A stretch of 38,757 bases of DNA from an uncultured Lachnospiraceae bacterium (GTDB taxonomy: Bacteria; Bacillota; Clostridia; Lachnospirales; Lachnospiraceae): the NCBI GenBank assembly GCA_944381535.1, contig CALWLN010000057.1:1-38757 (forward strand), given 5' to 3'. Shown piece after piece: positions 22,783 through 37,927 of this stretch; the stretch's first letter is position 1, and each line of letters opens with the position of its first letter. A model generated the notes under the pieces. That model was not told the DNA's origin and searched no databases. It worked only from the letters and a program-made list of their open reading frames with translations. Position numbers and translations under genes: made by a program.

Positions 22783-22866
22783 AAAACTTTTTCGGACTCT
22801 GTCTCGTCTAACAGAGCAGAGGCAGCAACAAGACAGTTGTCGTATCATTTTTTTAGGAGGAAAAGC

Positions 22867-24255
22867 ATGAGTAAGAAAAAAATCGGTATTATTGCCGCAG
22901 TTGCAGTCGTAGTAGTTGCGGCGGCGGCGACAGGAGTATGGTTCCTGCTTCGAGGTATCGGAGGGGGAAGTAACAACGGTGACAAGGTGTATGTGGAGTC
23001 CGTAGCCACATTAACCAACACAAACGCAGGAGTGCAGAACCGTTATTCCGGCGTGGTGGAGCCCCAGCAGTCCTGGGAAATCAAGAAGAATTCGGAAAAG
23101 ACCGTGAAGGAGATTTTTGTAAAAGAGGGGGATATGGTGGAAGTGGGCACTCCCTTATTTGAGTACGATACTGATTCCATCAAGGATGAGATCGCGCAGG
23201 CAAAGCTGGAGATGGAGGGGATAGACAATCAGATCTCCGATTACTACAGTCAGATTGAGGCACTTAAGGAGGAGCGGGCGGCGGTATCCGAGGATGAAAA
23301 ATTTCAGTATACCACCCAGATTCAGTCTATCCAGACCTCCATTAAGCAGGCTGAGTACAACAAAGAGAGCAAGAAGGCAGAGATAGCCAAGAAAGAAGAA
23401 TCCTTAAATAACGCTGTGGTGAACAGTGAGCTTGCCGGTACTATCAAGAGCATCAGTGAAAATGGTGTGGATCCCTATACGGGTCAGGAGATGCCCTTTA
23501 TGACGGTTCTGGCTGTGGGGGATTATCGTGTTAAGGGAACGGTAAATGAGCAGAATGTGTACAGTATCCCGGTTGGTTCTCCGGTGATTCTGCGCTCCAG
23601 AGTGGATGAGGAGCAGACCTGGACGGGGACTGTCACGGAGGTGGATACCAATACCACGGAGAGCAGTAATAACAATGGCGTGATGTATGACGGGGGCAGC
23701 CCGGAGACGGCCAGCAAATATCCCTTTTACATAGCCCTGGACGATGCGGAAGGCCTGATTCTGGGACAGCATGTCTATATTGAGATGGACATGGGCCAGA
23801 CCCAGCCAAAGGAAGGACTCTGGCTTTATGAGGGTTATATCGTGACGGACGAAGATGGAAGCTATGTGTGGGCGGACAACGGAAAGCAGCGGTTGGAAAA
23901 GCGCAGGGTAGAGCTGGGTGAGTATGACGGGGAGATGGCGGCCTATGAGATTTTATCCGGTCTCAGTGAGGAGGATTATATTGCCTTTCCCATGAATTCC
24001 ATGTATGAGGGCGTTCCCACCGTAACCGACATGGCTGAGGTGGATTACACCTCTCCCATGTATCAGGAGGAAAACGGCGACATGCCCGTGGATGAGGGTA
24101 TGCCGGAAGGCGGCGATATGCCTATAGATGAGGGGATGCAGGAGGACGACGATATACTCATGGACGAGGGTATGCCGGAAGAAGGAACCATAGACGATGG
24201 AGCTTCAGATGTTCCGATGACAGATACTCCGGCGGACGCCGGCGTCTTAGAATAG
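22867..24255 (+). CDS. Membrane-fusion adaptor protein 1 of a MacAB-like exporter
   Basis: A 462-residue protein anchored by an N-terminal membrane segment (about 6-28). Outside, it shows adaptor architecture: lipoyl half (KEIFVKEGDMVEVGTPLFEYD), a long coiled-coil hairpin (about 95-180), second lipoyl half, and a beta-barrel part (GTVNEQNVYSIPVGSPVILRS). This resembles YknX/MacA. The last 60 residues are an unusual tail rich in Met, Asp, Glu and Gly with a repeated DMPxDEGM-like unit. The start ATG 22867 follows TTAGGAGG; the frame extends upstream without a binding site. First of four genes that together form an exporter. Confidence 0.85.
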   Translation: MSKKKIGIIAAVAVVVVAAAATGVWFLLRGIGGGSNNGDKVYVESVATLTNTNAGVQNRYSGVVEPQQSWEIKKNSEKTVKEIFVKEGDMVEVGTPLFEYDTDSIKDEIAQAKLEMEGIDNQISDYYSQIEALKEERAAVSEDEKFQYTTQIQSIQTSIKQAEYNKESKKAEIAKKEESLNNAVVNSELAGTIKSISENGVDPYTGQEMPFMTVLAVGDYRVKGTVNEQNVYSIPVGSPVILRSRVDEEQTWTGTVTEVDTNTTESSNNNGVMYDGGSPETASKYPFYIALDDAEGLILGQHVYIEMDMGQTQPKEGLWLYEGYIVTDEDGSYVWADNGKQRLEKRRVELGEYDGEMAAYEILSGLSEEDYIAFPMNSMYEGVPTVTDMAEVDYTSPMYQEENGDMPVDEGMPEGGDMPIDEGMQEDDDILMDEGMPEEGTIDDGASDVPMTDTPADAGVLE

Positions 24256-24272
24256 ATTCCGGAGGTGCCTCT

Positions 24273-24962
24273 ATGATACTTGATTTGAAACATATTTATA
24301 AGGATTATCAACAGGATAAGCTGGTGGTACCGGTGCTGAAGGATATTTCCCTGCAGGTGGAGGAAGGGGAGTACGTGGCCGTTATGGGTCCTTCCGGTTC
24401 CGGAAAAACCACCCTGATGAATATCATCGGCTGCCTGGACCGTCCCACTTCCGGGACTTATGAGCTGGCCGGAGAAGATATTTTAAAGTACAAGGATAAA
24501 GAAATGTCGAATGTGCGTTTAAGAAGCATTGGCTTCGTGTTCCAGAGCTTTCATCTGCTGCCGAGACAGAGCGCCCTTGAGAATGTGGCTCTGCCCTTAA
24601 GCTATGCAGGCGTTAAAAAAAGAGAGCGAAGGGAGCGGGCGGCCAGGGCTCTTGAGCGGGTTGGGCTGGGAGATCGTCTGAATTTCAAACCGACTCAGTT
24701 ATCCGGCGGGCAGAAACAGCGCGTAGCCATTGCCCGGGCCATGGTGAACAATCCCAAGCTGCTGCTTGCGGATGAGCCAACAGGAGCCCTGGATTCCAAG
24801 TCCGGGAAACAGATTATGGAGCTGTTTGCGGCTCTGCACAGGGAGGGAGTCACTATTGTGATGATCACCCATGACAAAGCCATAGCTTCCCACGCAAAGC
24901 GTGTGGTGCAGATTATAGACGGTGAGATTACCGAGGGCAGCAAGGAGGTACAGGATGCGTAG
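24273..24962 (+). CDS. ABC transporter ATP-binding protein, MacB/LolD/YknY-like
   Basis: A 229-residue ABC ATPase with Walker A GPSGSGKTT (39-47), Q-loop Gln91, signature LSGGQ (143-147), Walker B LLLADE (163-168) and H-loop His200. The DEPTGALDSKSG pattern is typical of the MacB/LolD/FtsE group, which works with FtsX-type permeases by mechanotransmission. It lies between the two adaptor genes; the start is behind GGAGGTG. Its end overlaps the second adaptor gene by 8 bases. Confidence 0.95.
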   Translation: MILDLKHIYKDYQQDKLVVPVLKDISLQVEEGEYVAVMGPSGSGKTTLMNIIGCLDRPTSGTYELAGEDILKYKDKEMSNVRLRSIGFVFQSFHLLPRQSALENVALPLSYAGVKKRERRERAARALERVGLGDRLNFKPTQLSGGQKQRVAIARAMVNNPKLLLADEPTGALDSKSGKQIMELFAALHREGVTIVMITHDKAIASHAKRVVQIIDGEITEGSKEVQDA

Positions 24963-26556
24963 GACGAAGAAGATTATCGTAACTATTATAACCCTGCTGG
25001 TCGTTGCGGCCCTGGCTGCCGGAGGAATTTTCATCTATCTGTGGCAGCGGAACAATCAGCTGGTGGCAGAGGTCCAACCGGTGGAAAATCTTACCTGGGG
25101 CTACAGCGGAAATGAGATGACAAGCTCCGGTATGGTGACGAATGATTTTTACCAGGATGTGTATCTCATTGAAGGCCAGACGTTGAAGGAGGTTTATGTG
25201 GCAGAGGGGCAGGAGGTAAAGGCCGGCGACCAGTTGCTGGCCTATGACATGACCCTCACCGAGCTTCAGGTAGAGATGCAGGAGCTGGAGGTCGAGAATA
25301 TCAAGAATAAGATCATACTGGCAAAGCGGGAGCTGGAAAAATTGAAGAACACAACCCCCATACCGGAGCAGCCTGTGATTCCGGAACAGCCCGCAGAACC
25401 GGAGCCGGAACCAGTGGAGCCGGTGCAGTATGACGAAACGGCCGGGGCATTTCACTTTTTAAACGGAGAGGTGGATACTGAACTTGCTGAGAGCGGCGGA
25501 AAAGGAACGCCGGAGGCTCCTTATATTATCCGCTGCATGCCTGGATGTTATGTGGAGGGCAGTTATCTGAATCAGATTGCTTTAGCGGAAACACCCGTGT
25601 TTGTGAGGCTGCAGATAATCGACCCAACCTCCGGTGCGGCCGTGTCCGGAAAATTCTGGGATATCAACACCAGACAATTTAACGGCATGGCTTTTGACGA
25701 CTTGGCAAAATGGTCTGTGGAGGCCAAGGCTCCCATAGAGGAAGAAGTGCCGGAGGAGCCGGAGCTGCCAGAAGAACCGGAGCTTCCTGTGGAACCGGAA
25801 ATTCCTCAGGGCTATACTGCCAAGGAGCTTGCCGCGGCTGTCAAGACTGCCGAGAAGAATTTAAAGGATCTTGATTTGCAGAGACGCCAGGCGGAGCTTC
25901 AGTTGGAACAGATGAAAAAGGTGACAGCGGACGGCGTGGTGACAGCCACAGTGGACGGAACCGTCAAGACTGTGGGAGACATGGCAAATCCACCCCAGGA
26001 TGGGTCCCCCTTCCTCACAGTGTCCGGGTCGGAAGGTCTGTATGTATCCGGAACCCTGACAGAGCTTCAGCTTGAGGATGTCACGGTGGGCCAGGTAGTA
26101 TATGCCAACTCCTGGGAGAGCGGCATGAGTTTCGAGGCTACCATTCAGGAGATTTCTCCCTACCCCACGGAGAACAGCAACAGCTGGGGAGAGGGCAATC
26201 CAAACGTGTCCTACTACCCCTATACGGCCTATATTTCCGATACGGAAGGACTTCGAAACGGGGAGTATGTGGATCTGACCATGACCGCCATGTATTCCGA
26301 GGAGGAGGCGAGCGCCCTTTATCTACAGAAGGCCTATATCCGTGAAGAGAACGGCAGAAGCTATGTGATGATAGCCGATGAGAAGGATCGCCTGAAGAAG
26401 CAGTATGTGGAGACCGGGAAAACCATTTACGGGGAAGCCGTAGAGATCAAGTCGGGACTTTCCAGGGAGGACAGGATTGCCTTCCCTTACGGAAAGACGG
26501 CGAAAGAGGGTATCCGGGTAAAAGACACTTCCGATTCCGGAATGATATATTATTAA
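24955..26556 (+). CDS. Membrane-fusion adaptor protein 2 with an inserted domain
   Basis: A 533-residue membrane-anchored protein (hydrophobic segment about 7-29). The lipoyl half (about 60-98) and first hairpin helix (99-132) are followed by a Pro/Glu-rich linker (133-158), an extra domain of about 100 residues (159-260) that I do not recognise, a second Pro/Glu-rich linker (261-286), then the return helix (287-322) and the rest of the adaptor. The insert thus sits at the tip of the hairpin. The start is ATG 24955, with AAGGAGG in the end of the ATPase gene. It is a second, distinct adaptor in the same operon; most such operons encode one. Confidence 0.82.
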   Translation: MRRTKKIIVTIITLLVVAALAAGGIFIYLWQRNNQLVAEVQPVENLTWGYSGNEMTSSGMVTNDFYQDVYLIEGQTLKEVYVAEGQEVKAGDQLLAYDMTLTELQVEMQELEVENIKNKIILAKRELEKLKNTTPIPEQPVIPEQPAEPEPEPVEPVQYDETAGAFHFLNGEVDTELAESGGKGTPEAPYIIRCMPGCYVEGSYLNQIALAETPVFVRLQIIDPTSGAAVSGKFWDINTRQFNGMAFDDLAKWSVEAKAPIEEEVPEEPELPEEPELPVEPEIPQGYTAKELAAAVKTAEKNLKDLDLQRRQAELQLEQMKKVTADGVVTATVDGTVKTVGDMANPPQDGSPFLTVSGSEGLYVSGTLTELQLEDVTVGQVVYANSWESGMSFEATIQEISPYPTENSNSWGEGNPNVSYYPYTAYISDTEGLRNGEYVDLTMTAMYSEEEASALYLQKAYIREENGRSYVMIADEKDRLKKQYVETGKTIYGEAVEIKSGLSREDRIAFPYGKTAKEGIRVKDTSDSGMIYY

Positions 26557-26571
26557 GGAGGAGAGCGGCTC

Positions 26572-27825
26572 ATGTTAGAAAATATCAGACTGTCCTTTCA
26601 GGGGATTTGGTCACATAAAATGCGTTCGTTCCTTACCATGCTTGGTATCATTATCGGGATTGCGGCGATCATCGCCATTGTCTCTACCATCACAGGAACG
26701 AACGAGCAGATTAAGCAGAATTTGATTGGCGCCGGGGACAACAATGTCAACGTGCAGTTGTACATGGGGGATTCCACCTATGAAATAGAGTACAGCGGAA
26801 TTCCCGAGGGGGTTCCCGTTATCACCAGGGAGGTCCTTGAGGAGATTCGAGGTGTGGAGGAAGTGAAGGACGCCGCCCTCTTCGTATCCAGGGATACTTA
26901 CAATACCATTTACCATAAAAATACGGGAATTACCGGCGGAAAGCTTTACGGCGTTGAGAAGGAATATTTTGATGTGTGCAATTACATAGTCAAGAGCGGG
27001 CGTGTTTTTGACGACGGAGACGTCAGCAATTTCAGAAAGGTGGCCGTTCTTGACGAGGACTCCGCGGAAACGTTGTTTTCCGGGGAGGATCCGGTGGGAA
27101 AAACCATTGAGATTTTAAAGGAGCCTTACGTGGTCATCGGAGTGGTGACAAAGTCCAGTAAGTTTGAACCGGTGATCAACAGCATGGATGATTATTACAT
27201 GTACGCCCAGCGAAGCAGCGGCGGCGTGTTTGTGCCCTATGCGACCTGGCCGGGGCTTTATGGCTATGATGAGCCCCAGAAGCTGGTGCTGACGGTGAAC
27301 AATACCGAGGACATGACGGCGGCGGGCAAAAAGAGCGCGGATATTTTGAATTCTTATCTGTCGGTGACAGATAACACCATACAGTACAAGGCCATTGATC
27401 TCTTAGAGCAGGCCAAGGAAATTCAGGAGTTGAGCAGATCCACCAACACCATGCTGATATGGATTGCGGGAATTTCCCTTCTGGTGGGCGGTATCGGCGT
27501 CATGAACATCATGCTGGTGTCGGTGACGGAGCGGACCCAGGAGATTGGATTGAAGAAGGCCATTGGAGCCAGAAAATCCAGGATACTGGGACAGTTTTTA
27601 ACCGAGGCGGCAGTGCTGACCAGTCTGGGCGGATTGTTCGGCGTGATCGTGGGAATCATTCTGGCGGAGGTCATATCCAAGCTCACCGGAACGCTGGTGG
27701 CCATCAGCGCGCCGGCGGCGGTGGGTGCCGTGGTATTTTCCATGATCATCGGTATTGTGTTCGGGTTGCTGCCCTCCTATAAGGCGGCGAATCTGAATCC
27801 CATTGACGCGCTGCGGCATGAGTAA
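26572..27825 (+). CDS. ABC transporter permease, MacB/FtsX type
   Basis: A 417-residue permease with a first membrane helix at about 18-42 (LTMLGIIIGIAAIIAIVS), a large extracellular MacB-like domain (about 43-280), and three C-terminal helices (about 287-310, 338-365, 378-400). SVTERTQEIGLKKAIGARKSRI is the usual coupling segment, and the end NPIDALRHE is typical. It works with the ATPase encoded at 24273-24962. Gene order adaptor-ATPase-adaptor-permease suggests one complex exporting a peptide or hydrophobic compound. The start is behind AAGGAGGAG. The operon ends at terminators at 27883-27939 and 28025-28063. Confidence 0.92.
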   Translation: MLENIRLSFQGIWSHKMRSFLTMLGIIIGIAAIIAIVSTITGTNEQIKQNLIGAGDNNVNVQLYMGDSTYEIEYSGIPEGVPVITREVLEEIRGVEEVKDAALFVSRDTYNTIYHKNTGITGGKLYGVEKEYFDVCNYIVKSGRVFDDGDVSNFRKVAVLDEDSAETLFSGEDPVGKTIEILKEPYVVIGVVTKSSKFEPVINSMDDYYMYAQRSSGGVFVPYATWPGLYGYDEPQKLVLTVNNTEDMTAAGKKSADILNSYLSVTDNTIQYKAIDLLEQAKEIQELSRSTNTMLIWIAGISLLVGGIGVMNIMLVSVTERTQEIGLKKAIGARKSRILGQFLTEAAVLTSLGGLFGVIVGIILAEVISKLTGTLVAISAPAAVGAVVFSMIIGIVFGLLPSYKAANLNPIDALRHE

Positions 27826-32107: not shown

Positions 32108-32271
32108 CTTTGTCCGCTATAGACATGCCCTAACGGGAACATTATCTGTACTAAATATCTAAAAAATGTTTACAAATTATACATTTATTGTTAATGCTGA
32201 CTATATTTTTTCTGGATATACTATTTTTAGATAAATTTCGAGAATGGCATACAGAAAGAAAAAGGTGCAGT

Positions 32272-33357
32272 ATGGTACGAGCGAGGCGCATGGAATACGG
32301 AATTGTGATACGGATTGGAATGTTTTTGACAGCATGCCTTTTCTGGGCGGCGGTGATCAGCCAGATAGGCTATGTGGTCCTGCGCTTTCCTGTCTTTTTT
32401 ACAGACAGAAGTGTGACGGAGCCTATTACCAGCACGGATTACCGTTTCCAGAAGCGTTTTGCGGGAACGATCAAACGCTACGGCCAGTTCGCGAATCTGT
32501 ACCGGGAGGAATACAGCACGGCTCTGCCGGGACTTTCCTATACCAGCATGGGGGATATTGGTTCCCACCATATGGTTCCACAGGGGATCTGTATCGCCGG
32601 AGATTACATGCTGATTACCGCCTATGACAATAAGAAAGTGGAGAAATCCGTCGTTTACGTCCTGTCCAACCGGGACGCTTCGGCCCGCGGTTTTCTGGTG
32701 ACGCTGATTCTGCCGGACCAGAACCATGTGGGCGGCATTACCTTTGACGGAAGCAACGTATGGATCGCGAAAAGCACCAGCGGCTATGTAAGCTCTCTGC
32801 CTTATGAGCTTATCGAGGAAGCGGCCGCCTCCGGCCGCGACAGCTATCGGGTAGAAAGTTATGGACAAAATCTCTACTGCGGCGTTACGGCTTCCTTTGT
32901 GAGCTATTACAACGAGCGGCTCTGGGTGGGCACTTATCGCTCGTCCTTAAGCGGAACAGGAACGCTTAACTGCTACCGCCTGGAGCAGGAAGAGGATACT
33001 ACCCGGCTTTTGTGGGAGAGCGCTGCGGAAATCCCCGCCTACGCTCAGGGAATCGCGTTTCTAGAACAGGAGAATACGACTTATGCCCTTCTAAGCACTT
33101 CCTGTGGCCGCTACCGGGATTCCAAAGTTTATCTTTATGAACTGAAGCAGGACTCCGGGGAATTTGCGCTGACGCAGGCGGCTCAGTACCGTTTCCCGCC
33201 TATGGCGGAGGAACTGGCCACCGACGGGGACTACACCTATGTCGTCTTTGAATCTGCCGCCTCCTGTTACAGTAACCCGGGGTATGGCAGGTGCATATAT
33301 CCGGTGGACAGGATCAGCGCCCTCTCCAATCAGGAACTGCTGGCGGGACTGCCATAG
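32272..33357 (+). CDS. Membrane-anchored propeller-like extracytoplasmic protein
   Basis: A 361-residue protein with an uncleaved signal-anchor (about 12-40) and a large outer domain. The outer part has repeated beta-rich units with motifs such as HHMVPQGICIAGDYMLITAY, NHVGGITFDGSNVWIAKS, YNERLWVGTY and YAQGIAFLEQ. This spacing of G-I-x-x-x-G-x-x-x-W/M-I strands looks like a beta-propeller. I cannot name a function. The start ATG 32272 has AAAGGTG just upstream; a TTG 84 bases earlier in the same frame has no binding site and falls in AT-rich leader DNA. It stands alone between serS and carAB. Confidence 0.65.
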   Translation: MVRARRMEYGIVIRIGMFLTACLFWAAVISQIGYVVLRFPVFFTDRSVTEPITSTDYRFQKRFAGTIKRYGQFANLYREEYSTALPGLSYTSMGDIGSHHMVPQGICIAGDYMLITAYDNKKVEKSVVYVLSNRDASARGFLVTLILPDQNHVGGITFDGSNVWIAKSTSGYVSSLPYELIEEAAASGRDSYRVESYGQNLYCGVTASFVSYYNERLWVGTYRSSLSGTGTLNCYRLEQEEDTTRLLWESAAEIPAYAQGIAFLEQENTTYALLSTSCGRYRDSKVYLYELKQDSGEFALTQAAQYRFPPMAEELATDGDYTYVVFESAASCYSNPGYGRCIYPVDRISALSNQELLAGLP

Positions 33358-33470: not shown

Positions 33471-33560
33471 CTTACCGGATTTTGTAAAAATTTTTGTGCA
33501 AAAAACAGTTGAAAAATAAAAGCCGTTATGATAAACTTTTTACAATTTAAAAACAGACAG

Positions 33561-33619
33561 AAAAAAAGAGATTACTGTTCCCGCTGTGGGCAGTGACAGG
33601 CCAGGTCCCTCTTTTTTTT
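33561..33619 (+). terminator. Structured terminator in the carA leader (candidate attenuator)
   Basis: The outer stem AAAAAAAGAG (33561-33570) pairs with CTCTTTTTTT (33609-33618), followed by a further T. Inside it, ACTG-TT-CCC-GCTGT-GGG-CAGT (33574-33594) makes a second hairpin. It ends 34 bases before carA. A terminator inside the leader suggests attenuation of pyrimidine or arginine genes, but the PyrR-binding consensus was not found. The promoter is probably around 33510-33535 (TTGAAA, TATGAT), with poor spacing. Confidence 0.6.
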
Positions 33620-33653
33620 GCCCAACAGCAGTAGAAAGGACAAGTGAAACCCT

Positions 33654-34724
33654 ATGAAAGCTTTTCTCATCCTAGAAAACGGCACGGTATTTCCGGGGAA
33701 TAGTATCGGCTCCCCAAAAGAAATCATCAGCGAAATTGTTTTCAACACCTCTATGACAGGTTATCTTGACGTCCTCACCACCCCTTCTTATGCCGGACAG
33801 GCAGTTGTTATGACTTACCCCTTAATTGGAAATTGCGGCGTTACGCCGGATATGGAATCCACGAAGCCCTGGGTGGACGGACTCATTGTGCGCGAGCTTG
33901 TGAGGCGGCCCAGCAATTTCCGCTGTCAGGGAACATTGGAGGACTTCCTGGTAAAAAATGATATTACGGGAATCGCAGGCGTCGATACCCGGGCGCTGAC
34001 CAGGCTGCTTCGGAACAACGGAACCATGAACGGTATGATCACCACCGACGAAAATTACAACCTGGAGGAGCTTTTGCCGAGAATAAAAGCTCACCGGGCC
34101 GGTGATCTGGTGTCCCAAGTGACCTGTGCGGAGAAAAAGGTTCTCCCCGGCAAGGGAAAGCGTGTGGCGCTGCTGGACTGCGGCACCAGAAAAAGCATTG
34201 AGCGGATTTTAAATGAGCGGGAATGCAGCGTGATGGTTTATCCGGCGAGTACATCCGCGGAGACGATTCTTGCGGAACATCCCGATGGAATCCTCCTTTC
34301 CGGAGGCCCTGGGGACCCCAGAGAGTGCGGGGATATCCTGGCGGAAGTGAAGAAACTCTATGAAAGCGGCCTGCCCCTGATGGGAATCGGTCTTGGACAT
34401 CAGCTTCTGGCCCTGGCCACCGGCGCAACCGTCGCCAAAATGAAACACGGTCACAGAGGAAGTAATTATCCTGTGCGGGATATTAAGACCGGACGGGTCT
34501 ACATTTCCACTCAGAGCCACGGTTATGTGGTGGAGACGGACAGCCTGGACCCGGAAGTGGCGAAGGAATCCTTTGTAAATGTCAACGACAGGACCAACGA
34601 GGGGATTTCCTACCAGAATGGAAACGCCTTCTCCGTGCAGTTTTACCCGGAGGCCAGCCAGGGCGTCCAGAGCAGCAGCTACCTGTATGATTTGTTTATC
34701 GAAAAGATGGGAGGGAATCAGTAA
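33654..34724 (+). CDS. carA: Carbamoyl-phosphate synthase small subunit with disabled glutaminase site
   Basis: The small subunit normally hydrolyses glutamine and passes ammonia to CarB. The 356-residue protein has the standard N-terminal domain (IVFNTSMTGYLDVLTTPSYAG, TYPLIGN) and a class I glutamine amidotransferase domain (about 168-350). The nucleophile motif, normally GICLGHQ, reads GIGLGHQ with Gly246 instead of Cys. The catalytic His, normally in HPEAS, is Tyr331 (YPEAS); only Glu333 of the triad remains. The SGGPGDP oxyanion loop is kept. The protein should therefore not release ammonia from glutamine and may instead serve as a structural subunit. The start is ATG 33654; the stop overlaps carB by one base. 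Confidence 0.93.
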   Translation: MKAFLILENGTVFPGNSIGSPKEIISEIVFNTSMTGYLDVLTTPSYAGQAVVMTYPLIGNCGVTPDMESTKPWVDGLIVRELVRRPSNFRCQGTLEDFLVKNDITGIAGVDTRALTRLLRNNGTMNGMITTDENYNLEELLPRIKAHRAGDLVSQVTCAEKKVLPGKGKRVALLDCGTRKSIERILNERECSVMVYPASTSAETILAEHPDGILLSGGPGDPRECGDILAEVKKLYESGLPLMGIGLGHQLLALATGATVAKMKHGHRGSNYPVRDIKTGRVYISTQSHGYVVETDSLDPEVAKESFVNVNDRTNEGISYQNGNAFSVQFYPEASQGVQSSSYLYDLFIEKMGGNQ

Positions 34725-37700
34725 TGCCAAAGAATCCGGATATTAAGAAAGTATTAGTCATCGGTTCCGGGCCGATCATCATCGGACAGGCGGCAGAGTT
34801 TGACTACGCCGGAACCCAGGCCTGCCGGGCCTTGAAGGAGGAAGGCGTGGAGGTTGTGCTGGTCAATTCCAATCCGGCCACCATCATGACCGACAAGGAT
34901 ATTGCGGACGAGGTTTACATTGAGCCACTGACCATCAAGGTGCTGGAACAGATTATATTAAAAGAGCGCCCCGACAGCGTACTGCCCACCCTGGGCGGCC
35001 AGGCGGGTCTGAATCTGGGGATGGAACTGGCGGAGTCCGGCTTTCTTGCAAAGCACGGTGTAAAACTCATCGGAACCACGCCCCTCACCATCAAGAAGGC
35101 CGAGGACCGGCTGGCCTTCAAGGAGACCATGGAGAAAATCGGTGAGCCCTGCGCTCCCTCCCTGGTGGTGGAAACGGTGGAGGACGGAATCGCCTTCACC
35201 AACACCATCGGCTATCCGGTGGTACTGCGCCCGGCCTACACCTTGGGTGGAAGCGGCGGCGGTATCGCTAACAATGAGGCGGAGCTGATCGACATCTTAA
35301 GCAACGGCCTGCGCCTTTCCCGGGTGGGACAGGTGCTGGTGGAGCGCTGCATTGCCGGCTGGAAGGAAATCGAGTATGAGGTGATGCGGGACGCAGCCGG
35401 AAACAGCATCGCCGTATGTAATATGGAAAATATCGACCCGGTAGGGGTACACACCGGAGACAGTATGGTAGTGGCGCCCACCCAGACCCTGGGAAGCCTG
35501 GAGTGCGAAATGCTTCGGACCGCAGCGCTGCGTATCATTGAGGAAATCGAAATCACCGGAAGCTGTAACGTGCAGTTTGCCCTTCATCCGGACAGCCTGG
35601 AGTATGTGGTGATTGAGGTAAATCCAAGGCTCAGCCGTTCCTCCGCCCTGGCCAGCAAGGCCACCGGTTTCCCCATCGCCAAGGTCGCAACCAAGATTGC
35701 CTTAGGGTTCAACCTGGACGAGATTAAAAACGCCATCACTGGCAAGACCTACGCCAGCTTTGAACCCGCCATCGACTACTGCGTGGTGAAGCTGCCAAGA
35801 CTGCCCTTTGATAAATTCATCACCGCCAAGCGGACCCTGACCACCCAAATGAAGGCCACCGGCGAGGTGATGAGTATCTGCGCCAGCTTTGAGGGCGCTC
35901 TGATGAAAGCCATCCGTTCTCTGGAACAGCATGTGGACAGCCTGGTGACGGATGAGTACAGCCATCTGTCCTATGATGATTTTATTGAGCGGTTAAAGAT
36001 TGTGGACGACAGGCGGATCTTCGTCATCGCCGAGGCGGTGCGAAGGGGAATCGCCTATGAGACCATTTTTGATCTTACCAAAATTGATATCTGGTTTATC
36101 GACAAGATAGCCATTCTGGTGGAGATGGAGAAGCGGCTCCGCAGCGAAGCCCTTACCGTGGACTTGCTGAGGGAAGCCAAGCGCCTGGAGTTCCCGGACA
36201 ATGTGGTTGCCAGGCTCACCGGCAAATCCGAGGAAACCGTCAGGAACATGCGCTACGAGAACGGAATCGTCGCGGCCTACAAGATGGTGGATACCTGCGC
36301 CGCGGAATTTGACGCCGCCACCCCCTATTACTACTCTGTCTATGGCGGGGAAAATGAGGCTGTCAGCAGCCATGACCGGAAAAAGGTGCTGGTGCTGGGC
36401 AGCGGACCCATCCGTATCGGCCAGGGTGTGGAATTTGACTACTGCTCCGTACACTGTACCTGGGCATTTTCCAGGGAGGGGTATGAGACCATTATTGTCA
36501 ACAACAACCCGGAGACCGTTTCCACAGACTTCGATGTTGCGGACAAGCTGTACTTTGAGCCTCTGACCCCGGAGGATGTGAAGAATATTGTGGACATCGA
36601 GAAACCCGACGGCGCTGTGGTGCAGTTCGGCGGTCAGACGGCCATCAAGCTGACGGAAAGTCTGATGAAAATGGGAGTGCCCATCCTGGGCACCCAAGCC
36701 GAGGATGTGGACGCAGCTGAGGACAGGGAGCTGTTTGACAGGATCCTGGAACAGACGAAAATTCCGAGAGCCGCAGGGGGAACCGTGTTCACCGCTGCCG
36801 AGGCCAAGGAAGTGGCAAACCGTTTGGGGTATCCGGTGCTGGTGCGCCCCTCCTACGTGCTGGGGGGCCAGGGTATGCAGATTGCCTACTCCGATGAAGA
36901 GATTGAGGAGTTTATGGAAATCATCAACCGGATTGCCCAGGACCATCCCATTTTGATAGACAAATACCTCCAGGGCAAGGAAATCGAGGTGGATGCGGTC
37001 TGCGACGGTACCGACATTCTCATTCCAGGTATTATGGAGCATATCGAGCGCACCGGCGTTCACTCCGGTGACAGTATCTCCGTATATCCGGCCTTCACCA
37101 TCAGCGACAAGGTGAAGGACACCATTGTGGAGTACACGAAACGGCTGGCCCAGGCCCTGCATGTCATCGGGCTTATCAATATCCAGTTTATCGCTATGGG
37201 GGAGGAGGTTTATGTGATTGAGGTCAATCCCCGGTCCTCCCGTACGGTGCCCTATATCAGCAAGGTGACCGGAATCCCCATTGTGGAGGTGGCCGCCAAA
37301 GCCATCATGGGCCATACCTTAAAGGATATGGGCTATCCTGCCGGACTGGCTCCCGCCGCCGATTACATTGCCATCAAAATGCCGGTATTTTCCTTTGAAA
37401 AGCTCAGAGGAGCGGAGATCAGCCTGGGGCCGGAGATGAAGTCCACCGGAGAATGCTTAGGCATTGCCAAGACCTTCAATGAAGCTTTGTACAAGGCATT
37501 CCTGGGCGCAGGCATCAACCTGCCCAAGTACAAGCAGATGATCATCACGGTAAAGGATGCGGATAAGCCGGAGGCGGCGGAGATTGCCAAACGGTTTGAA
37601 GCCCTGGGCTATATTATCTACGCCACCAGGAGCACCGCAAAATATCTGCAGGAGCATGGGGTCAGTGCCCGCCGGATCAACAAGATCAGTCAGGAATCCC

Positions 37701-37927
37701 CCAATGTCATGGATCTGATCCTGGGCCACAAGATTGACCTTGTCATCGATACGCCCACTCAGGGCCGGGACAAGTCCAGAGACGGCTTCTTGATCCGCAG
37801 GAACGCCATTGAGACCGGCGTGCACTGTCTGACCGCCATAGATACCGCCAGAGCGCTGGTGACCAGCTTAGAGTGCGCCAATGATGAATTGAATCTGGTG
37901 AATATTGCGACGGTAAAGAATATCTAG
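34724..37927 (+). CDS. carB: Carbamoyl-phosphate synthase large subunit
   Basis: Makes carbamoyl phosphate from bicarbonate, ammonia and two ATP for pyrimidine and arginine synthesis. The 1067 residues are full length: two homologous halves, each with a nucleotide-binding start (LVIGSGPIIIGQAAEFDY and LVLGSGPIRIGQGVEFDY) and an ATP-grasp domain (about 128-330 and 670-865), an oligomerisation region between them, and a C-terminal MGS-like regulatory domain (about 935-1067). NPRLSRSSALASKATG and NPRSSRTVPYISKVTG are the expected active-site blocks. It is coupled to carA by a TAATG junction with GGGAGGG upstream. With a glutaminase-dead CarA it would have to use free ammonia or receive it from elsewhere. 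Confidence 0.97.
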   Translation: MPKNPDIKKVLVIGSGPIIIGQAAEFDYAGTQACRALKEEGVEVVLVNSNPATIMTDKDIADEVYIEPLTIKVLEQIILKERPDSVLPTLGGQAGLNLGMELAESGFLAKHGVKLIGTTPLTIKKAEDRLAFKETMEKIGEPCAPSLVVETVEDGIAFTNTIGYPVVLRPAYTLGGSGGGIANNEAELIDILSNGLRLSRVGQVLVERCIAGWKEIEYEVMRDAAGNSIAVCNMENIDPVGVHTGDSMVVAPTQTLGSLECEMLRTAALRIIEEIEITGSCNVQFALHPDSLEYVVIEVNPRLSRSSALASKATGFPIAKVATKIALGFNLDEIKNAITGKTYASFEPAIDYCVVKLPRLPFDKFITAKRTLTTQMKATGEVMSICASFEGALMKAIRSLEQHVDSLVTDEYSHLSYDDFIERLKIVDDRRIFVIAEAVRRGIAYETIFDLTKIDIWFIDKIAILVEMEKRLRSEALTVDLLREAKRLEFPDNVVARLTGKSEETVRNMRYENGIVAAYKMVDTCAAEFDAATPYYYSVYGGENEAVSSHDRKKVLVLGSGPIRIGQGVEFDYCSVHCTWAFSREGYETIIVNNNPETVSTDFDVADKLYFEPLTPEDVKNIVDIEKPDGAVVQFGGQTAIKLTESLMKMGVPILGTQAEDVDAAEDRELFDRILEQTKIPRAAGGTVFTAAEAKEVANRLGYPVLVRPSYVLGGQGMQIAYSDEEIEEFMEIINRIAQDHPILIDKYLQGKEIEVDAVCDGTDILIPGIMEHIERTGVHSGDSISVYPAFTISDKVKDTIVEYTKRLAQALHVIGLINIQFIAMGEEVYVIEVNPRSSRTVPYISKVTGIPIVEVAAKAIMGHTLKDMGYPAGLAPAADYIAIKMPVFSFEKLRGAEISLGPEMKSTGECLGIAKTFNEALYKAFLGAGINLPKYKQMIITVKDADKPEAAEIAKRFEALGYIIYATRSTAKYLQEHGVSARRINKISQESPNVMDLILGHKIDLVIDTPTQGRDKSRDGFLIRRNAIETGVHCLTAIDTARALVTSLECANDELNLVNIATVKNI

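Follow-up and report, generated by a model that had tools for sequence, protein, structure and literature searches.

The window analysed here, a stretch of 38,757 nucleotides from an uncultured Lachnospiraceae bacterium (genome G000), carries on its forward strand a carAB pair encoding a carbamoyl-phosphate synthase (CPS). The genes, here called carA1 and carB1, and the features relevant to them are listed below; CarA proteins with the nucleophile Cys are referred to as Cys-type, those without it as Cys-less.

32188-33357, + strand: ORF upstream of carA1, with no Pfam or NCBIfam match; also upstream of carA in G005, G001, G003 and G004
33509-33537, + strand: putative promoter TTGAAA-N17-TAAACT, within a block that is conserved across five genus genomes (alignment)
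33654-34724, + strand: carA1, CPS small subunit, almost certainly glutaminase-null, 356 aa (translation, profiles, AlphaFold2 model)
33768-33770, + strand: Asp39, where Cys-type CarAs have an invariant Glu (E. coli E41; alignment)
33780-33782, + strand: Thr43, where Cys-type CarAs have an invariant Asp (E. coli D45; alignment)
34188-34190, + strand: Arg179, where Cys-type CarAs have an invariant Lys (E. coli K202; alignment); Lys in G005
34302-34304, + strand: Gly217, where Cys-type CarAs have an invariant Asn (E. coli N240; alignment), next to the oxyanion glycines
34389-34391, + strand: Gly246 codon, site of the nucleophile Cys269 of E. coli (translation, alignment)
34515-34517, + strand: Ser288, where Cys-type CarAs have an invariant Asn (E. 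coli N311; alignment)
34644-34646, + strand: Tyr331 codon, site of the catalytic His353 of E. coli (translation, alignment)
34665-34667, + strand: Val338, where Cys-type CarAs have an invariant Pro (E. coli P360; alignment)
34724-37927, + strand: carB1, full-length synthase subunit, 1067 aa (ORF, profile, residue check)

The translation of positions 33654-34724 is unbroken over 356 aa, and the last base of carA1 is the first base of carB1 (a 1-base overlap). CarA1 matched the profiles NCBIfam NF009475 (E 1.8e-142; 474.6 bits versus a cut-off of 221) and TIGR01368 (E 8.3e-122; 406.6 bits versus 307.35), both curated cut-offs being exceeded over the full length. The solved folds nearest to its AlphaFold2 model (mean pLDDT 85, pTM 0.86; pLDDT below 50 at residues 57-63 and 336-338) are those of E. 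coli CarA (1cs0, 1jdb; TM 0.89), followed by human CPS1 (5dou; TM 0.84). By sequence, predicted fold and gene order, CarA1 is a CarA. Automatic naming is misleading in this case, since NCBIfam calls the protein glutamine-hydrolysing with high scores.

The sequence-only reading of the window had placed a Gly at the site of the nucleophile Cys and a Tyr at that of the catalytic His, and alignment with E. coli CarA bore out both assignments. Gly246 lies within LMGIGLGHQLLALA (elbow motif GIGLGHQ) and Tyr331 within SVQFYPEAS, so that the Cys of GxCxGHQ and the His of HPE, by which glutamine-hydrolysing CPSs and other class I glutamine amidotransferases are recognized, are both absent. The invariant N311, K202 and N240, also used to define the class, are replaced as well (Ser288, Arg179 and Gly217), while the GHQ of the elbow and the catalytic Glu of HPE (Glu333, E. 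coli Glu355) are retained. CarA1 thus combines a retained glutaminase domain (predicted fold) with the lack of the catalytic Cys, which is characteristic of CPS I-type enzymes. The replacement of the catalytic residues is as good as certain, and the loss of the glutaminase activity nearly so.

These substitutions were placed in a wider frame by an alignment of 141 rows (140 distinct CarAs, including that of the window, plus E. coli), of which 108 are Cys-type and 33 are not (30 Gly, 3 Asn); the set was steered, as part of it had been chosen with the Gly pattern. CarA1 deviates at 8 of the 44 positions that are invariant across 107 Cys-type CarAs (E41, D45, K202, N240, C269, N311, H353 and P360; L181, which has a frame break within residues 256-293, was set aside). 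When each Cys-type CarA was left out in turn, it deviated at 0 or 1 of the positions that do not vary among the remaining 106, which argues that the substitutions in CarA1 did not arise by chance. We take N311 to belong to the glutamine site and N311, K202 and N240 to act in glutamine binding, and several of the eight positions presumably line the glutamine pocket seen in E. coli CPS structures. The whole glutamine site therefore seems to have been released, including the Asn that precedes the oxyanion glycines. The oxyanion loop had been described as intact; Gly218 and Gly220 are indeed kept, but the preceding invariant Asn (N240) is Gly217.

CarB1 is open over its 1067 aa and scored 1518.5 bits against a profile cut-off of 599, so the absence of frame damage and the full-length carB noted earlier were confirmed for both genes. 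The ATP-grasp catalytic residues inspected are all kept; among the same positions, none was found that would account for a better use of ammonia.

The ORF upstream of carA1 is shared with four genomes of the genus and the promoter-like block is conserved, which indicates that carAB1 occupies the usual place of carAB in this genus. No Rfam match to a known structured RNA was obtained in the window, and the predicted folding of the carA1 leader is barely more stable than that of shuffled sequence (z -0.97). The leader contains eight T residues followed by GCCC (33612-33623), with a counterpart in four of five genus members (absent in G004); this is possibly a slippage or attenuation element. Further upstream, genes for membrane-fusion-type proteins, an ABC ATPase and a MacB-like permease stand in a row (22837-27825), forming an export system ahead of serS and carAB.

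Conservation of carAB1 within the genus and a second carAB

CarA was present in five of the six genus genomes searched. That of G005, an uncultured Lachnospiraceae bacterium of the same genus (isolate E08__bin320), is 85% identical to CarA1 (carA dS 0.54), carries the same Gly and Tyr, and deviates at seven of the eight changed invariant positions (Lys is kept at K202). A sequencing or assembly error as the source of the two residues was therefore judged unlikely. The other 28 CarAs aligned with this pair have Cys and His throughout, including those of G001, G003 and G004 from the same genus. In the CarA tree, the window and G005 proteins form one clade (100, starred), which is nested in a larger clade of mainly Cys-type proteins and has the CarAs of G001, G003 and G004 next to it. 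Conservation of the Gly and Tyr among relatives, proposed as a check on the sequence-only reading, thus holds for the sister species and fails for G001, G003 and G004; Cys-less CarAs do recur beyond the genus.

Selection was estimated by Nei-Gojobori counts, with G001/G003 as the normal reference pair. Between the window and G005, carA1 showed an omega of 0.171 (dS 0.54) compared with 0.061 (dS 0.54) in the reference pair, and carB1 an omega of 0.040 (dS 0.58) compared with 0.026 (dS 0.68). Thus, relative to its normal counterpart, carA1 evolves at about three times the rate and is still constrained: the constraint on CarA1 is relaxed yet real, and CarB1 is nearly as constrained as normal. Within carA1, omega was 0.154 for the first 150 codons, hardly below the value for the remainder (0.166), so that a special scaffold role of CarA1 is not visible in the rates.

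We considered whether carAB1 is a redundant copy in decay, i.e. whether carA1 lost its glutaminase by drift after a second carAB had arrived, with the operon now on its way out. A second carAB is indeed present (see below), carA1 evolves fast, and the carB of G005 (L279:469-3672) contains a single in-frame stop at codon 235; this gene lies on a draft metagenome contig, so that the stop may be either an error or a recent loss, and the carB copies of the window and of further genus genomes are intact. Against this stand the undamaged frames in the window, the low omega values (0.17 and 0.04) maintained at a carA dS of 0.54, the conserved promoter-like block, and similar losses in genomes where no other CarA was found. 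Decay is thus unlikely, and the earlier claim of selection rather than decay gains support from the constraint on both genes and from the conserved promoter-like block and upstream neighbour.

The second carAB of G000 lies on contig C125, which starts inside carA2, past the nucleophile, so that about the last 100 residues of CarA2 are visible. This part keeps the catalytic His (HPES) and adjoins a second carB, whose product is 54% identical to CarB1; no other piece of carA2 was found in G000 at an E value of 0.001. In G005, CarA2 (L183, identical with L039) is complete and normal (GICLGHQ, QYHPES). A normal second carA, which the sequence-only reading had suggested looking for, is therefore present as far as the His goes, and its Cys was read in the G005 copy only. 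The G005 carAB2 closes a run of asnB (cut by the end of the stretch), purC, purA, purB, pyrG, purF, carA2 and carB2, mostly genes for glutamine-using enzymes (five genes named by Pfam, purB from its start sequence only and the car genes by alignment). Between G000 and G005, omega was 0.053 for carB2 (968 codons) and 0.138 for carA2 (101 comparable codons). A third CarB-like piece, corresponding to CarB residues 861-1051 with 38% identity, was detected at a contig end (L009; G000:C151:4989-5564).

Distribution of Cys-less CarAs

In the family of the window, a scan for the exact motif, blind to other replacements of the nucleophile, identified a CarA with GIGLGHQ in 2 of 397 genomes (those of the window and G005). 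The motif itself is not diagnostic of CarA and was rejected as such, since GTPases that we take to be of the Obg type carry GIGLGHQFLRH: the seven matching genomes comprised 2 with CarA, 4 with Obg-type proteins and 1 with a 9-residue frame. Among 60 relatives, 47 had a CarA, 46 of which were read (G011 and two pieces of G041 were left aside), and only those of G005 and G042 were Cys-less. Cys-less CarAs are thus rare near the window.

A wider contig scan (GIGLGHQ plus two L/F-type codons) yielded at least 118 stretches, assigned by motif, among the matches listed, to CarA (26), Obg-type proteins (70) and others or stretches without the motif (22). Seventeen of the CarAs, from 80 of the matches listed, were followed into their 17 genomes, which were thus chosen for a Gly-type CarA. 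In fourteen of these, no Cys-type CarA was found: nine had a single Gly-type CarA, and five had two, both with Gly (Bacillus sp. HF117_J1_D, Siminovitchia fordii, Lederbergia galactosidilytica, L. lenta and L. panacisoli). The remaining three had a second CarA with Cys, in one case (L181) with a frame that breaks ahead of the His.

In the family of Sporosarcina (Caryophanaceae in NCBI), surveyed around G435, a non-Cys CarA was found in 11 of 61 genomes (7 Gly, 4 Asn). Two of these also had a Cys-type CarA, which leaves nine genomes of 61 with Cys-less CarA only, one being the chosen centre G435; three identical rows were dropped from the reading of this family and the relatives. The Asn proteins (L215, L216, L223 and L230, from G480, G496, G462 and G443) represent a separate, inactive-looking type with GINLGHE and QFDPEAS, i.e. 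with Cys replaced by Asn, Gln by Glu and His by Asp; it is the sole CarA found in G462 and G496.

An unsteered estimate was obtained by sampling the phylum of the window evenly, which added 100 genomes with a completeness of at least 90%. CarA was present in 72 of these, and 89 stretches were read; the nucleophile was readable in 86 and was Gly in 12 and Cys in 74 (it was unreadable in L394, L397 and L398, whereas in L382 the Cys was read and the His was not). No CarA with both Cys and His was found in 8 of the 72 CarA-bearing genomes, of which two, G538 (match ending at residue 233) and G529, were unread. The eight comprise (i) G537, G560, G515, G586, G524 and G518, with one Gly-type CarA, (ii) G506, with two, and (iii) G512, with a Gly-type and a Cys/Tyr CarA. 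G515 is a single contig (98% complete) and G524 consists of three contigs (100%). Both Cys- and Gly-type CarAs occurred in G557, G539 and G532.

A tree was built by a quick method from 73 of the 141 rows (33 non-Cys and 40 thinned Cys-type sequences) with 20 trait columns dropped. The Cys/non-Cys label switches at least 10 times on it, six of these switches being forced by starred branches; L179, L180 and L184 are long and unsurely placed, and the direction of change is not taken from the tree, loss being our interpretation. The Cys-less CarAs share changes at E. coli positions N240, H295, N311 and H353, although His353 is kept in 15 of 33. Those of Lederbergia, Siminovitchia, Sporosarcina and clostridial metagenome genomes resemble CarA1 in the Gly at the nucleophile site, but most are separate from it on the tree and many represent the only CPS found in the genome.

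Nitrogen metabolism of the host genomes

Carbamoyl phosphate is apparently still needed where no Cys-type CarA was found. Genes of the aspartate/ornithine carbamoyltransferase family were detected in all 30 genomes examined (G000, G005 and 28 with only Cys-less or Cys/Tyr CarA; G479, G442 and G496 were left aside), with two copies of the domain in 26 genomes, three in G000 and G005, and one in G524 and G518. In L. lenta, the two Gly-type carA genes lie about 3.2 and 1.8 kb, respectively, from two different carbamoyltransferase genes, a spacing that would fit arginine and pyrimidine operons. The only carA of G042 (Gly) and that of G462 (Asn) lie in an apparent pyr cluster, judged by ORF order and start sequence rather than by profile.

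Neither urease nor an absence of glutamine synthetase offers a general cause of the change, since urease was found in 6 of 21 genomes and the glutamine synthetase family in 20. The exception is Sporosarcina jiandibaonis (G435), whose sole CarA is of the Gly/Tyr kind and which has urease and no glutamine synthetase match. Its CTP synthase (L296:598-2196; match 2e-249) carries GIALGLQ, with Ala in place of the nucleophile Cys and the His kept; its GuaA-like protein retains the Cys. Judged from its genes, this set would fit an economy that uses ammonia directly, which is not general, as the other Cys-less genomes keep the glutamine synthetase family. In G439, a glutamine synthetase-family match (C60:723-1712) lies directly upstream of the only carA, which is of the Gly type (C60:1838-2887).

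G000 itself has glutamine synthetase-family genes in addition to its three carbamoyltransferase-family genes, and no urease match was obtained in G000 or G005. A general loss of glutamine amidotransferases in G000 was rejected: among its four other class I matches, three, which resemble TrpG, GuaA and HisH in size and motif, retain the Cys, and the fourth (L306) gave no readable motif. With glutamine synthetase-family genes and a second carAB retained, the use of ammonia is not forced in this species.

Ammonia as the probable nitrogen donor

The interpretation that we favour, with a probability of roughly 0.8, is that carA1-carB1 (33654-37927) is the usual carAB of the genus minus glutamine hydrolysis and would act as an ammonia-fed CPS. 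Where no Cys-type CarA is present, glutamine cannot feed CPS by the known mechanism, which makes ammonia the likely donor; bacteria with only a Cys-less CarA probably make pyrimidines and arginine from free ammonia. Such genomes make the chief case for a functional Cys-less CarAB, a case that is extended to CarAB1 by analogy. Taken with the loss of Cys and His and the constrained carB1, they favour the proposal of the sequence-only reading that CarAB1 is probably ammonia-dependent. The points counted against this include the stop in the G005 carB, the faster evolution of carA1, the lack of a urease match in G000 and G005, and the rarity of such CarAs near the window.

Mechanistically, CarA1 would still dock on CarB1, as a non-catalytic subunit holding the synthase in its working form. 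E. coli CarA C269 mutants keep ammonia-dependent activity. Free NH3 may enter CarB1 through a side path of the kind proposed for human CPS1 and perhaps for E. coli CPS or, alternatively, through the emptied glutaminase pocket of CarA1, and would then be converted by the normal two-ATP chemistry. PMC4655335 attributes the inability of human CPS1 to use glutamine to the Cys to Ser change, proposes the alternative ammonia path, and mentions a possible, less clear counterpart in the E. coli enzyme. According to a 2018 review (PMC6245113), however, E. coli CPS needs very high ammonia, which is likely not physiological, so that an ammonia-fed CarAB1 must be assumed to have changed in affinity. For an ant symbiont lacking glutamine synthetase, carAB has been suggested to use ammonia (PMC3017870). 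In G000, CarAB1 may serve when ammonia is plentiful and CarAB2 when nitrogen must come via glutamine.

Other roles for CarA1 fit the data less well. A non-catalytic regulator, i.e. a scaffold or decoy through which CarB1 or CarB2 is modulated, in a complex without useful ammonia activity, would account for a predicted fold kept after the catalytic residues had gone and for two CPS systems within one genome. It would leave unexplained why the catalytic residues inspected in CarB1 are kept under strong constraint, and genomes with only Cys-less CarA would have no working CPS despite their carbamoyltransferase genes; we regard it as no more probable than decay. Still less probable is an exchange of subunits, with the normal CarA2 feeding CarB1 and CarA1 acting as competitor or spare: both systems share one genome and the two CarBs are 54% identical, but the exchange is impossible where no Cys-type CarA was found, and carA1 and carB1 remain adjacent and overlapping. 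Hydrolysis of glutamine by another nucleophile, for which the retained GHQ and Glu333 might speak, is hardly credible with Cys and His both gone and the residues at N311 and K202 also replaced, Cys-269 and His-353 being described as essential in PMC6245113.

The bacterial enzyme of E. coli (PDB 1jdb, 1cs0) and CarAB1 have in common two side-by-side genes, the same folds (predicted for CarA1) and the inspected catalytic residues of CarB; they differ in that CarAB1 lacks the Cys, the His and further invariant residues, and glutamine use is not expected of it. Vertebrate CPS I (human CPS1, PDB 5dot/5dou) likewise retains a glutaminase-like part without the catalytic Cys and uses free ammonia (PMC4655335, PMC7657897). 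In CPS I, however, the two parts are fused into a single chain, Ser occupies the Cys site and N-acetylglutamate is required, whereas CarAB1 is bacterial, is encoded by two separate ORFs (33654-34724 and 34724-37927), carries Gly and Tyr, and lies within a mostly Cys-type bacterial clade. The precedent of vertebrate CPS I, invoked earlier, is therefore useful for the way in which CarAB1 would work but not for its membership, and CarAB1 is of separate origin. In fish and frogs, the loss of triad residues (Cys) or of glutamine-binding residues accompanies ammonia use, according to PMC7657897.

The carbamate-kinase-like CPS of Pyrococcus is of the carbamate kinase kind and not a CarA/CarB enzyme, from which it presumably differs in fold. 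It shares with the proposed activity of CarAB1 the formation of carbamoyl phosphate and is ammonia-dependent by a title cited in PMC6245113. The same review takes glutamine, the nitrogen donor preferred by the E. coli enzyme, to be preferred by every bacterial CPSase. This generalization is challenged by a glutaminase loss that is both recurrent and conserved and that in some genomes affects the sole CPS detected. Our search of open-licence PMC text returned no description of a glutaminase-null bacterial CarA.

The wider picture, to which we give somewhat better than even odds, is that bacterial CPS has become ammonia-fed several times by loss of the glutaminase. About a tenth of the CarA-bearing genomes of the phylum sample would then lack a glutamine-using CPS and build pyrimidines and arginine on free ammonia, the loss would have spread to CTP synthase in one Sporosarcina for which no glutamine synthetase match was obtained, and coexisting types would act as a pair, one fed by ammonia and the other by glutamine, with nitrogen supply as the switch. 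If true, bacteria would have repeated the CPS III to CPS I transition several times independently, in some cases in cultured isolates, and the Cys-less CarABs would allow tests of which residue changes enable a CPS to work at low ammonia and of the reason for retaining the inactive subunit.

At the nucleophile site, Gly was found in all 12 Cys-less CarAs of the phylum sample and in 30 of 33 in the larger, partly Gly-picked set. The residue of the nucleophile elbow sits in a strained turn, and Gly may be favoured there for this reason. One protein of G512 (L342) keeps the Cys but carries Tyr in place of the catalytic His, and the other CarA of this genome has Gly and Ile at the two sites, which suggests that the losses may begin at either residue.
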